DNA of 64,000 bases, from positions 62,001 to 126,000 of the forward strand of contig NZ_HE978535.1 of the NCBI RefSeq assembly GCF_000311785.1. The letters are read 5' to 3'. Origin of the DNA: Brevibacillus massiliensis (GTDB taxonomy: Bacteria; Bacillota; Bacilli; Brevibacillales; Brevibacillaceae). This document shows, piece after piece, positions 11,251 through 55,073 of this stretch (the stretch's first letter is position 1; each line of letters starts with the position of its first letter). The position numbers were made by a program, and so were the translations under genes. The notes beneath the pieces were generated by a model. It ran no database searches, was not told the origin of the DNA, and saw nothing but the letters and a program-made list of their open reading frames with translations.

Positions 11251-12356
11251 TGAGACAGACAAAGATGCTGTTTCCAATCGACCTGCAGTACTTTAACGGC
11301 GAAAAGACGGAAAAGGCGACACCCCGAAAAAAGCAGGACGCGCGAAAAAAAGGCCAGGTGGCAAAGAGTTCGGAGCTGTCGCCGGCGATCACGTTGGTCA
11401 TGACGTTTTTTCTGCTTCTGATGACAGGCTCGTGGATGCTGGAAGTGTTCCAGAGCATTCTCCGCCAGTCGCTTTCGACCTACACGCTGTGGGACGTAAA
11501 CGAGGAGAATCTGAAGGTCATGATCCAGCAGGTTGCGTTTGCCGGAGGGAAGATCGCGGCACCGGTATTGGGGGTCATCTTGATTTCGGCGGCGGTGACC
11601 AATTACTTGCAGGTAGGCAATCTGTTCACCGTCGAACCGATCAAGCCAAAGCTGGACAAGATCAACCCGATCAAAGGATTCAAACGCATCTTTTCCCTGC
11701 GCAGCCTGGTAGAACTGGCCAAGTCCCTGCTTAAGATCAGTACCGGTTTGTACATCGCCTACGTCATCCTCCTGGCAGCCAAGGACGAGTTGGTCAAGCT
11801 GCCGATGAAGACAGTAGATATCGTGCTCTCCTTTACCGCTGGACAGGCTGTGAAGCTGGGGCTGATGATCGGTGTTCTGCTGTTGGTCTGGGCGTGTTTT
11901 GACTACCTGTATCAGCGGTACGAATACGAAAAAAACCTGCGAATGTCCAAGCAGGACATAAAAGACGAGTATAAGAAGACCGAAGGGGACCCGCTGATCA
12001 AAAGCAAGATCAGGGAGCGCCAACGTCAGATGGCGATGCGCCGGATGATGCAGGAATTGCCCAAGGCGGATGTCGTCATTACCAACCCGACGCACTTCGC
12101 CGTGGCGATCAAGTACGAGGCGGCAGAGATGAGCGCCCCGACTGTGATTGCCAAGGGGCAGGACTACCTGGCATTAAAAATCAAGCAAATCGCCAAGGAG
12201 CACAGGATCGTAGTCATGGAAAACAAGCCGCTAGCCAGAGCGCTGTACAGTCAAGTGGAACTCGGCCAGCAAATTCCCGAAGAACTGTTTAAAGCAGTGG
12301 CGGAAGTACTGGCATACGTGTACAAGCTGCAAGGAAAGACAGCAAGAAGAAGATAG
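11250..12356 (+). CDS. flhB: Flagellar export switch protein FlhB
   Basis: An export-gate protein of 368 residues that changes substrate specificity after self-cleavage. The early EKTEKATPRKKQDARKKGQV motif, four membrane helices and the cytoplasmic domain are present. The cleavage site NPTH (VVITNPTHFAVAIKY) is intact, so autoproteolysis between Asn and Pro is expected. The switch partner FliK is encoded upstream. GGGAGG is spaced better for this ATG than for the GTG one codon upstream. Confidence 0.96.
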   Translation: MRQTKMLFPIDLQYFNGEKTEKATPRKKQDARKKGQVAKSSELSPAITLVMTFFLLLMTGSWMLEVFQSILRQSLSTYTLWDVNEENLKVMIQQVAFAGGKIAAPVLGVILISAAVTNYLQVGNLFTVEPIKPKLDKINPIKGFKRIFSLRSLVELAKSLLKISTGLYIAYVILLAAKDELVKLPMKTVDIVLSFTAGQAVKLGLMIGVLLLVWACFDYLYQRYEYEKNLRMSKQDIKDEYKKTEGDPLIKSKIRERQRQMAMRRMMQELPKADVVITNPTHFAVAIKYEAAEMSAPTVIAKGQDYLALKIKQIAKEHRIVVMENKPLARALYSQVELGQQIPEELFKAVAEVLAYVYKLQGKTARRR

Positions 12357-12377: not shown

Positions 12378-14420
12378 GTGGGAAGCAAGCTGAAAGAATT
12401 TGGAGTCATATTCTTCGTCATCAGCATCGTAGTCGCAATGGTCATCCCGTTGCCGGCAAGGCTGCTGGACGTTCTTCTGGTGATGAATATCTCTCTTGCC
12501 CTGGTCATCCTGCTCGTCTCGATGAACACCAAGGAAGCGCTGCAATTCTCCATCTTTCCGACGATGCTGCTGATCACGACGCTGTTTCGTCTGGCTCTGA
12601 ACGTATCGACAACCCGGAATATCCTGAGCGAAGGGAAAAGCGGTAAGGTAATCGAAGCGTTCGGCAGTTTTGTCGTAGGCGGCAACGAAGTAGTGGGCTT
12701 TGTCGTGTTTCTGATCTTGATCGTGATCCAATTCATCGTCATCACCAAGGGGTCGGAGAGGGTCGCAGAGGTGGCAGCCCGCTTTACGCTGGACGCGATG
12801 CCAGGGAAGCAGATGAGCATCGACGCCGACCTGAATGCCGGGATGATCTCGGAAGCGGAAGCCCGCAGCCGCCGGCAAAAAATCGAGCGGGAAGCAGATT
12901 TTTACGGAGCCATGGATGGGGCGAGCAAGTTTGTAAAAGGGGACGCCATTGCAGGAATCATCATTTTTATTATCAACGTATTGGGCGGCTTCATTATAGG
13001 AATGGCAATTCACGGCATGGACTTTGCCACTTCGCTCAAGACCTTTACCAAACTCTCGATCGGCGACGCGCTCGTCGCACAAATTCCGGCTTTGCTGATC
13101 TCCACTGCCACCGGCATCATCGTGACCCGGGCCGCTTCGGAAGGCGGACTCGGCGACGATATTTCGGCGCAATTGTTTGCTTACCCCAGGCTGCTCTACA
13201 TCGTTGCGGGCGTGATCGCGCTGCTCGGCATCGTCACGCCGATTGGTCCGCTGTCGACCATCCCTGTTGGACTGCTGCTGGCCTTTCTCGGCTGGCAGCT
13301 TGACCGGAGCAGAAAGACGCAGATGGTGGAGACGGCACTGCAGGAGGAAGAACAGCAAATTGAGGAAGTTCGCAGTCCGGAAAGCGTCGTCAGTCTGCTT
13401 CAAGTTGATCCGATCGAGTTTGAATTTGGCTACGGATTGATTCCGCTGGCTGACGCGAAGCAGGGCGGCGATCTGCTCGACCGGGTGATTATGATCCGAC
13501 GCCAGTGCGCCCTCGAACTGGGAATCGTGGTTCCGGTCATTCGCATCCGCGACAACATTCAGCTCCGCCCGAATGAGTACGTGATCAAAATCAAAGGGAA
13601 TCAGGTTGCTGCGGGCGAAATTTTGCTCGATCACTATCTCGCGATGAGCCCGGGTTTCGAGGATGATGCGGTTGTCGGTATAGAAACCACGGAACCGGCG
13701 TTTGGACTCCCGGCATTATGGGTAACAGAAGAGAATAAGGAGATTGCCGAACTTTCCGGCTATACGGTGGTTGACCCGCCGTCCGTGGTCGCGACACACC
13801 TGACCGAAGTGATCAAACGCCATGCGCACGAACTGCTTGGACGCCAGGAGACTCGCACCTTGATCGACAACATCAGGGAAACCAGTCCCGTCTTGGTCGA
13901 CGAATTAATCCCGGGACTCTTGTCGATCGGCGAGGTGCAAAAGGTCCTGCAAAAGCTCTTGAAGGAAAAAGTGTCGATTCGAAATCTGCCGGCTATCTTG
14001 GAGGTGTTGGCTGACCACGCCATTTACACCAAAGACCCGGAAGTCCTGACGGAGTACGTCAGGCAGGGCATATCCAGGCAGATCACCCAACAGTATACCG
14101 AGCCAGGCCAGCCGCTTCGCGTCATTACGGCCGGACCGGCGCTGGAGAAGGCGATATCGGAACGAATCGAGCGAACGGAACAGGGAAGCTATCTGGCGAT
14201 CGATCCCGAGACCTCGCAGCGGATCTATCACAGCATGTCGGAGGAGATCAGCAAAATGGTCAATTCCGGGCAGCAGCCGATCGTCCTGACTTCGCCAGCC
14301 ATCCGCATGTATCTGCGGCAGCTGATGGAGCGCATGATGCCCGATGTCCCTGTGATCTCCTACAACGAGCTTGAGCCCCATATTGAAGTACAAAGCGTAG
14401 GGATGGTGAACTTGTCATGA
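12378..14420 (+). CDS. flhA: Flagellar export gate protein FlhA
   Basis: The largest export-gate subunit, 680 residues. Eight membrane helices occupy roughly the first 330 residues. FPTMLLITTLFRLALNVSTT and AEAEARSRRQKIEREADFYG-type FHIPEP-loop sequence are present. The C-terminal cytoplasmic ring domain (about 340-680) binds chaperones. It starts with GTG after a modest AAAGGAAG site. The final ATGA overlaps the flhF start. Confidence 0.96.
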   Translation: MGSKLKEFGVIFFVISIVVAMVIPLPARLLDVLLVMNISLALVILLVSMNTKEALQFSIFPTMLLITTLFRLALNVSTTRNILSEGKSGKVIEAFGSFVVGGNEVVGFVVFLILIVIQFIVITKGSERVAEVAARFTLDAMPGKQMSIDADLNAGMISEAEARSRRQKIEREADFYGAMDGASKFVKGDAIAGIIIFIINVLGGFIIGMAIHGMDFATSLKTFTKLSIGDALVAQIPALLISTATGIIVTRAASEGGLGDDISAQLFAYPRLLYIVAGVIALLGIVTPIGPLSTIPVGLLLAFLGWQLDRSRKTQMVETALQEEEQQIEEVRSPESVVSLLQVDPIEFEFGYGLIPLADAKQGGDLLDRVIMIRRQCALELGIVVPVIRIRDNIQLRPNEYVIKIKGNQVAAGEILLDHYLAMSPGFEDDAVVGIETTEPAFGLPALWVTEENKEIAELSGYTVVDPPSVVATHLTEVIKRHAHELLGRQETRTLIDNIRETSPVLVDELIPGLLSIGEVQKVLQKLLKEKVSIRNLPAILEVLADHAIYTKDPEVLTEYVRQGISRQITQQYTEPGQPLRVITAGPALEKAISERIERTEQGSYLAIDPETSQRIYHSMSEEISKMVNSGQQPIVLTSPAIRMYLRQLMERMMPDVPVISYNELEPHIEVQSVGMVNLS

Positions 14421-40218: not shown

Positions 40219-40251
40219 TTTTTTGGAAATACTGGTGATACACGACGATGG

Positions 40252-40280
40252 AGAGTGGGGAAACCCACTCTTTCTTTCTG
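40252..40280 (+). promoter_or_regulatory. Attenuator-like hairpin in the rimP leader
   Basis: AGAGTGGG (40252-40259) and CCCACTCT (40264-40271) form a perfect 8-bp stem with a GAAA tetraloop, followed by a T-rich TTTCTTTCT tract. It lies about 33 bases after the -10 box and before rimP, so it can act as an intrinsic terminator inside the leader. Autogenous control of the operon through NusA is an inference. Confidence 0.75.
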
Positions 40281-40316
40281 GGTGAATTCGCGTATGGAAA
40301 TGTGAGGGAGGTACTT

Positions 40317-40775
40317 GTGAGTAAAGTAACGGAAATCGTAGCTGATCTGCTGACGCCAATTCTGGAAGAAATGAACCTGGAATTGGTGGAGGTTGAATAC
40401 AAAAAAGAGGGAAGCAACTGGTTCCTCCGGGTCTATATTGACAATGAAACAGGTACGATTGACATCGACGACTGCGGGACGGTAAGCGAGCGGCTGAGCC
40501 AACGCTTGGACGAAGTGGATCCGATTCCCAACGCCTATTTTCTCGAAGTATCGTCTCCAGGTGCGGAGCGTCCGCTGCGAAAAGAAAAAGACTTTTACAA
40601 AGCCGTCGGCAAACACGTGCATGTCGTCACCAAAGCAGAGATTAATGGGCATACGATTTTCGAAGGGGAACTCACCGAGTTTGACGGTGTGCAGTTGACG
40701 GTGAAAGAAGCCAAACAAACGCACTCCATTCCGCTGGAGTTAATCGACACGGCCCGTATGGCTGTCGTCTTTTAG
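40317..40775 (+). CDS. rimP: Ribosome maturation factor RimP
   Basis: A 30S assembly factor of 152 residues. [20 protein letters not shown] and [20 protein letters not shown], then [19 protein letters not shown], are family motifs. GAGGGAGGT precedes this GTG. An upstream in-frame ATG at 40248 lies inside the leader hairpin region and is rejected. First gene of the nusA-infB operon. Confidence 0.96.
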
Positions 40776-52439: not shown

Positions 52440-53696
52440 GTGATTCAAAGACATGACTGTGGAAACGGCCTGCGCATCGTGACGGAGCAAATTCCTTCCG
52501 TGCGTTCGGTTGCGCTTGGCATATGGGTGGGAACCGGATCAAAATTCGAGCAGGAGAGCAATAACGGGATTTCCCATTTTCTTGAACATATGTTTTTTAA
52601 AGGAACCGAAACCCGTTCCGCAAAGGAGATTGCGGAGGCTTTTGATGAGATCGGCGGCAATGTGAATGCCTTTACCTCCAAAGAGTACACCTGCTACTAC
52701 GCCCGGGTGCTCGATCAGCACGCGATGCTCGCCCTAGACGTGTTGGCCGATATGTACTTTCACTCCGTGTTTGACAACGGCGAGCTGGAGAAGGAGAAGA
52801 ATGTCGTCATTGAGGAGATCAGCATGTATGAGGATACTCCCGACGATCTGGTCCACGATTTGATTGCGCGCGCCAGCTTCGCTGACCATCCGCTCGGGTA
52901 TTCCATCCTCGGCACGGAAGGTGTGCTGCGCAGCTTGACACGGGATGACCTGGTCCGCTACATCGATCAGCGCTACACGCCGGACAATACGGTGGTAGCG
53001 GTAGCCGGCAATTTCGACGATCGCCTGATCGAGGAGATCAAGCGGCGCTTTGGACGATACAGGCGTCCAGGCGAGCCGGCCCGGGTGGAACAGCCGGCGT
53101 TTGTCGCCAGAACCATCGCCCGTCACAAGGCGACGGAACAAGCGCATCTCTGCTTGTCGCTACCAGGCTTTCAGGCCGGGCATGACGATATCTACTCGCT
53201 GATTTTGCTGAACAATGTGCTCGGAGGCAGCATGAGCTCACGGCTTTTTCAGGAGATCCGCGAAGAGCGGGGCCTTGCCTACTCCGTCTACTCTTACCAC
53301 ACGGCGTACAAGGAAACGGGGATGTTTACCGTCTATGCGGGAACCGCGCCCGAACAGGTCGGACAGGTGTTTGACATCGTCACGAGCATCCTGCGCGATG
53401 TCAGCGAACGCGGAATTACCGCCAAGGAGCTCAGCAAGGGAAAGGAACAGTTGAAAGGGAGCCTGATGCTCAGCCTGGAGAGCACGAACAGCAGGATGAG
53501 CCGCTTGGGCAAAAATGAACTGCTGCTTGGCCGCCACCTCAGCCTCGACCAAATGACGGAAAAAATCGACGCCGTCACCCATGACTCCGTACTGGCGGCA
53601 GCAAGACAGCTGTTTCACAACCAGCTGGCGATTGCGATGGTAAGTCCGCTGGAACAGTTCCCAGCCAATGTGCAGAACGATGTACTGATCAAGTAG
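52440..53696 (+). CDS. mlpA: M16-family zinc protease MlpA (YmxG)
   Basis: A 418-residue peptidase of the pitrilysin/mitochondrial processing peptidase family. The inverted zinc motif HFLEHMFFKGT is intact, and the distal Glu is in NVVIEEISMYEDTPDDLV. The C-terminal half has the R/Y motif region (SSRLFQEIREERGLAYSVYS). No signal peptide is visible, so it is cytoplasmic. B. subtilis MlpA (YmxG) is encoded at the same place upstream of ymxH and the dpa genes. GTG start after GAGGAGGA. Confidence 0.95.
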   Translation: MIQRHDCGNGLRIVTEQIPSVRSVALGIWVGTGSKFEQESNNGISHFLEHMFFKGTETRSAKEIAEAFDEIGGNVNAFTSKEYTCYYARVLDQHAMLALDVLADMYFHSVFDNGELEKEKNVVIEEISMYEDTPDDLVHDLIARASFADHPLGYSILGTEGVLRSLTRDDLVRYIDQRYTPDNTVVAVAGNFDDRLIEEIKRRFGRYRRPGEPARVEQPAFVARTIARHKATEQAHLCLSLPGFQAGHDDIYSLILLNNVLGGSMSSRLFQEIREERGLAYSVYSYHTAYKETGMFTVYAGTAPEQVGQVFDIVTSILRDVSERGITAKELSKGKEQLKGSLMLSLESTNSRMSRLGKNELLLGRHLSLDQMTEKIDAVTHDSVLAAARQLFHNQLAIAMVSPLEQFPANVQNDVLIK

Positions 53697-53778: not shown

Positions 53779-54034
53779 ATGCGGTTTAGCGAAATTTGCA
53801 ACAAGGAGATTATCGGCCTTGACAACGGCGAGAGAATGGGAGAATTGCGAAATTCCGATCTGGAAATTGATCCCGGTACGGGTGAAATATCGGCGATCGT
53901 CCTGCCGGGCAGTTCTTTTTTCGGCTGGGGGAAGCGCCGTGAGGACTTTGTCATCCCGTGGAAAAAACATCGTCAAGATCGGTCCGGATACGCTGATTGT
54001 CTCGCTTCGCGGGCATGCCGATCACCTATCATAG
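53779..54034 (+). pseudogene. ymxH: YmxH (YlmC/YmxH PRC-barrel family), frameshifted
   Basis: The first 60 or so residues match the YmxH/YlmC family: MRFSEICNKEIIGLDNGERM, then EIDPGTGEISAIVLPGSSFF, GW and VIPW. The gene then meets an A6 run at 53962-53967 and leaves the family reading frame. The frame one base on continues correctly (KNIVKIGPDTLIVSLRGHAD) and stops at 54034. Removing one A gives an 84-residue protein, the normal family size. As written, translation runs to 54087 with an unrelated tail. A sequencing error, a real mutation or rare slippage could explain it. The family function is unknown. AGGGGG precedes the ATG. Confidence 0.88.
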
Positions 54035-54173
54035 ACGACGATTGTCACCGGACGATCTGGCGGCGAATAGGATGGGGTAGACCGTAACGATTTCCGGGAA
54101 ACCCTCTGCCCTAGGAAAAACCATTTGCGTTTCACCGTTTATGCAGTAAAATGTTTGGAAAGGGGAACACAGC

Positions 54174-55073
54174 ATGCTAACGGGTATTCATGTTGCCTTC
54201 ATCGGGGGTGACGCCCGCCAGTTGGAAGTCATCAAAAAGTGCATTCAACTAGACGCGATTGTAACGCTGATCGGCTTCGACAACCTGGAGAGCAGTTTTA
54301 CCGGGGCAACGAAAAAACCTTTAACATGCGATGTGTTAAAAGACGTGGACGCACTTATCCTGCCTATTGTCGGCACAGATAATGACGGATTCGTCGAGAG
54401 TGTTTTCTGTTCAAAACCGCTGCAGTTTCTCAGTGAGCATGCCGCCTGCCTAAAGAAGCACTGCGTCGTCTATACGGGCATGGCGAAATCATACCTGAAA
54501 ACACTCTTGTTGAGACAGCAAATCACTCTGGTAGAATTGCTCGACCGAGATGAAGTGGCCATCTACAACTCTATCCCGACCGTAGAAGGCGCGCTCATGA
54601 TGGCAATCCAAAACACGGACATTACGATCCACGGTTCACAGGTGATCGTGCTTGGACTCGGCAGGACGGGAATGTCCCTGGCCCGCAGCCTTCATGCTCT
54701 CGGTGCCCGCGTTCGGGTAGGTGCCAGACGTCCGGAGCACATGGCAAGGATTCATGAAATGGGTCTCACTCCGTTTCATCTAAGTGAGCTGCGACCGCAA
54801 GTTGCAAATGCTGATATCATCTTCAACACGATACCTCAGTTGGTAATTACCGCTGAAGTGATCGCACAGATGCCGCAGGCCACGCTGATCATTGACCTGG
54901 CTTCCAAGCCGGGCGGAACAGACTTTCGATACGCTGAAAGACGAGGGATCAAGGCACTCCTGGCACCTGGGTTACCCGGAATCGTTGCTCCCAAAACGGC
55001 TGGACAGATCATCGCCAACACGGTGTCCCGCCTGATTGCGGATCAATCCAAGGACCGGGGGGAACCATCATGA
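54174..55073 (+). CDS. dpaA: Dipicolinate synthase subunit A
   Basis: With DpaB it turns hydroxy-tetrahydrodipicolinate (from the DapA step) into dipicolinate in the mother cell for the spore core. 299 residues. The Rossmann motif VIVLGLGRTGMSLARSLHAL lies at about 160-180. FNTIPQLVITAEVIAQ and LIIDLASKPGGTDFRYAERR are typical. AAAGGGGA precedes the ATG. I could not identify a convincing sigma-K promoter in the 139 bases upstream, although the family is sigma-K controlled in B. subtilis. Confidence 0.96.
   Translation: MLTGIHVAFIGGDARQLEVIKKCIQLDAIVTLIGFDNLESSFTGATKKPLTCDVLKDVDALILPIVGTDNDGFVESVFCSKPLQFLSEHAACLKKHCVVYTGMAKSYLKTLLLRQQITLVELLDRDEVAIYNSIPTVEGALMMAIQNTDITIHGSQVIVLGLGRTGMSLARSLHALGARVRVGARRPEHMARIHEMGLTPFHLSELRPQVANADIIFNTIPQLVITAEVIAQMPQATLIIDLASKPGGTDFRYAERRGIKALLAPGLPGIVAPKTAGQIIANTVSRLIADQSKDRGEPS

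Follow-up and report, generated by a model that had tools for sequence, protein, structure and literature searches.

A single-base frame break at an A6 run in ymxH of a Brevibacillus massiliensis draft assembly is probably a homopolymer length error

In Bacillus subtilis, loss of ylmC or ymxH alone was reported to leave sporulation normal and loss of both to impair it, and a second study found a slight competitive advantage for the ylmC mutant and for the double mutant (both as cited in PMC9332280, in the part of that article drawn on here). On the technical side, 2.13-2.78% of the genes on 454 metagenome contigs were reported to contain homopolymer errors, with a bias towards A and T and an increase with run length (PMC3277595, excerpted text). 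For B. massiliensis strain phR, the section of the genome report used here gives 454 GS FLX Titanium as the only sequencing platform, Newbler as assembler, and a genome of 5,051,018 bp with 53.1% G+C, 31 scaffolds, 129 contigs (132 in GenBank) and one rRNA operon (PMC3739172).

The window, i.e. the whole 64-kb stretch of B. massiliensis DNA that was analyzed, contains a ymxH gene of the YlmC/YmxH family that starts at 53779 on the forward strand, holds the family match over its first 62-63 codons and then continues in another frame. The features of the locus are as follows.

52440-53696, + strand: upstream neighbour, an open frame of 418 aa, which we take to be an M16-type peptidase, ymxG-like.
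53779-53967, + strand: ymxH, 5' part, read in the frame of the start codon, A6 run included; matches TIGR02888 and Pfam PRC to residue 62-63, and residues 1-63 in the own-genome search.
53962-53967, + strand: A6 run, the point of the frame switch in the ymxH family sequence, as read from the sequence.
53957-54034, + strand: ymxH, 3' part, read in the +1 frame, with own-genome match, family sequence and a stop at 54032-54034; it is drawn from where the own-genome match begins and shares some bases with the 5' part.
53968-54087, + strand: out-of-frame tail of the literal 102-aa frame, beyond the family match and unrelated to the family.
54174-55073, + strand: downstream neighbour, an open frame of 299 aa, presumably dipicolinate synthase subunit A-like (dpaA).

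The literal ymxH frame (53779-54087, 102 aa) scores 56 bits against TIGR02888 with residues 2-63, covering positions 1-63 of the 76 in the model, hence no single open frame spans the whole domain. When one base is skipped, an 84-aa protein ending at the stop 54032-54034 is obtained, which reaches 75.8 bits over model positions 1-75, and both scores exceed the curated cut-off of 44.2 bits. The Pfam PRC score (PF05239) rises likewise, from 37.1 bits over residues 2-62 of the literal frame to 48.3 bits for the read-through protein. Searching the genome itself with the read-through protein returned residues 1-63 in one frame (98% identity) and residues 60-84 in another (92% identity). The downstream piece contains NIVKIGPDTLIVSL in register with the relatives, therefore the frame change is not a chance resemblance. 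The original prediction that ymxH leaves its start frame for the +1 frame at A6 was thus accurate in coordinates, in run length and in the 84 residues expected after removal of one A.

A YlmC/YmxH match was present in 55 of 59 relative genomes, none of which belongs to the same genus; the matches listed include ylmC paralogues, and internal stops occur in none of them. From 29 fetched ymxH loci, 25 frames were read out, and all 25 are 85-86 aa long; the four loci left out of this readout (L025, L027, L029 and L030) have stop-free listed matches. In none of the 25 frames is the tryptophan codon followed by five or more consecutive As, and in every one two residues lie between the tryptophan and the next conserved I/V, as in the read-through protein. 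In the comparison with relatives that had been proposed as a check, the genes read are thus full-length and lack an A run at the break site. The same genome also harbours an intact ylmC paralogue (C3:232952-233176, frame of 91-92 aa), which reads VIPWRNIVKIG at the place equivalent to the break. A contig search for close relatives, which may omit records of the genome itself and of very near genomes, gave two loci, neither of them useful.

These alignments also bear on the idea that full-length YmxH is made from the sequence as it stands, by programmed +1 ribosomal frameshifting or by RNA polymerase slippage on A6. The overlap of both frames and the conservation of the downstream frame would suit such a mechanism. 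However, a forward shift would be needed, whereas ribosomes on lysine codons within an A run tend to slip backwards, and the zero frame stays open until the stop at 54085-54087, so that no stop would pause the ribosome at A6. Moreover, the site is not conserved: no A run stands there in any of the 25 frames read out from relatives. Homopolymers of length six are also frequent, with 465 of them, all four bases taken together, inside homology-supported stretches of the sampled contigs, and a separate count gave 132 A6 runs in the C1 part. Given the forward shift required and the lack of the site in every relative read, we regard frameshifting or slippage as very improbable. Still slightly less credit is given to the variant in which slippage at A6 would act as low-level phase switch or dosage control, with full-length YmxH in a fraction of the cells of the lineage.

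Whether ymxH is an isolated case was judged from a scan in which genes from stretches of four relatives were compared with 870 kb of the assembly; 759 of these genes could be placed, and they cover 423,252 of the 870,000 bases fetched. On visual inspection, most of the listed rows were set aside as shadow frames of the opposite strand or as conserved leaders before true starts, a sorting that is judgement and not a computed filter; shadow frames of this kind also dominated the frameshift scan of the window. One such row, window positions 40248-40318, lies directly before a gene that we assume to be rimP-like, is conserved and is matched by relatives in other frames; it looks like a conserved leader and not like a frameshift. 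Five breaks were kept, four of them from the scan list and the GerA break from a separate search: the one in ymxH and the following four.

C4:32274 (near 12274 of locus L116): oligoendopeptidase F gene (TIGR00181), frame change at a T7 run; the downstream piece scores 512.6 bits.
C3:154252 (near 14252 of locus L143): CcdC gene (PF07301, DUF1453), frame change at a T7 run, from the break scan, by eye.
Near C1:379.9 kb: Ger(x)C gene, frame change; the longest run at the change is of four Cs.
C1:377.9 kb: GerA gene, short loss, at a place where no base is repeated four times or more in a row.

Runs of six or more make up 0.77% of the homology-supported bases, and three of the five breaks (A6 in ymxH and the two T7) are situated on them, which indicates a strong association with homopolymers. 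Two marks of a homopolymer artefact were found, namely a ymxH break within a homopolymer run after which the family sequence resumes in register, and further breaks of this kind elsewhere in the assembly, two at T7 runs as judged by eye. The association fits sequencing error, although true slippage mutation favours runs too, a point that speaks against taking it as specific for an artefact. Compensating errors in the upstream pnp gene were also considered and dropped: the motif in question, which differs from the B. subtilis motif, is the same in the three relatives in which it was found (G007, G032 and G008), save for one residue in G007.

The main rival explanation takes the extra A as genuine: slippage would recently have inactivated ymxH, and the loss would be tolerated because the intact ylmC covers its role. 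The presence of this paralogue and the normal sporulation reported for B. subtilis lacking either ylmC or ymxH alone would make such a loss bearable, and genuine decay among the spore genes is conceivable because GerA and Ger(x)C germination genes are interrupted in the same genome. Against it, the second half of ymxH bears no visible sign of decay, since the +1 part follows the family nearly to the last position, and all matches listed for the relatives are free of stops. Moreover, similar T7 breaks strike the oligoendopeptidase F and CcdC genes, for which we know of no spore role. The other breaks do not prove error, because to our knowledge none of the other broken genes of this assembly is indispensable. 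On balance, real loss is possible but clearly the less likely explanation. If the break were real, the strain would offer a natural test of the reported redundancy of ylmC and ymxH in sporulation.

The GerA-type and Ger(x)C-type genes lie together and are both interrupted (L070:7007-9990, about 377.0-380.0 kb of C1), and this pair is possibly a truly decayed germination cluster.

Control scans of two relatives gave a mixed picture. In the single-contig assembly of relative G007, 459,339 of 900,000 bases were covered, and six or more genes there were judged by eye to be interrupted (in stretches L039-L043, L075-L094 and L125-L132), one of them presumably MutS-like. Breaks are therefore not peculiar to the B. 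massiliensis assembly, and the G007 data suggest that the G007 assembly holds indel errors as well. In relative G032, with 235,918 of 400,000 bases covered, no break was judged clear by eye; the rate seen in the B. massiliensis assembly (5 in 423,252) would predict about 2.8, which makes for a weak contrast. The break rate may differ between assemblies, as unequal assembly quality would give, with small numbers throughout. Two observations count against an artefact: the GerA-like and Ger(x)C-like breaks lie off long runs, and G007 has at least as many breaks.

The assembly comprises 5,060,362 bases in 37 pieces, and the 870 kb read have a G+C content of 53.4% when N is left out and are interrupted by 18 N gaps, each 304-1861 bases long. 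The gaps resemble those of paired-end scaffolds, although some N stretches could be masking. No SSU rRNA match was found in the assembly, in a search that was positive in only 9 of 14 control genomes. We infer a 454-like platform with flow-type reads.

Collectively, the break in ymxH is probably an artefact that arose when a homopolymer was given the wrong length in a draft assembled from flow-type, 454-like reads. The length of the A run would have been miscalled, leaving one extra A in ymxH of the draft that would be absent from the cell. The cell would then probably carry a normal YmxH of 84 residues. The original prediction had offered sequencing error, fresh inactivation and slippage or frameshifting as causes side by side; the first is now best supported, because of the two T7 breaks, the N-gapped scaffolds and the likeness to a 454-only genome, the second stays as a rival and the third retains little support. 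Single-base breaks at A or T runs in this assembly are a poor ground for calling gene loss.

Compared with the described YlmC/YmxH sporulation proteins with their PRC-barrel domain (TIGR02888, PF05239), the read-through protein matches almost the entire model, and the locus differs in that its reading frame is interrupted at A6. In size, G+C content and fragmentation the assembly resembles the phR 454 assembly as far as the cited section describes it (PMC3739172), but it has 37 pieces instead of 31 scaffolds and gave no SSU rRNA match where phR is described with one rRNA operon; both points speak against identity of the two, which is taken as a lead. Although the platform is inferred here and stated for the 454 contigs in the excerpted PMC3277595, the single-base frame change in an A run, the scaffolded draft and the two T7 breaks resemble the homopolymer frameshift errors described there.
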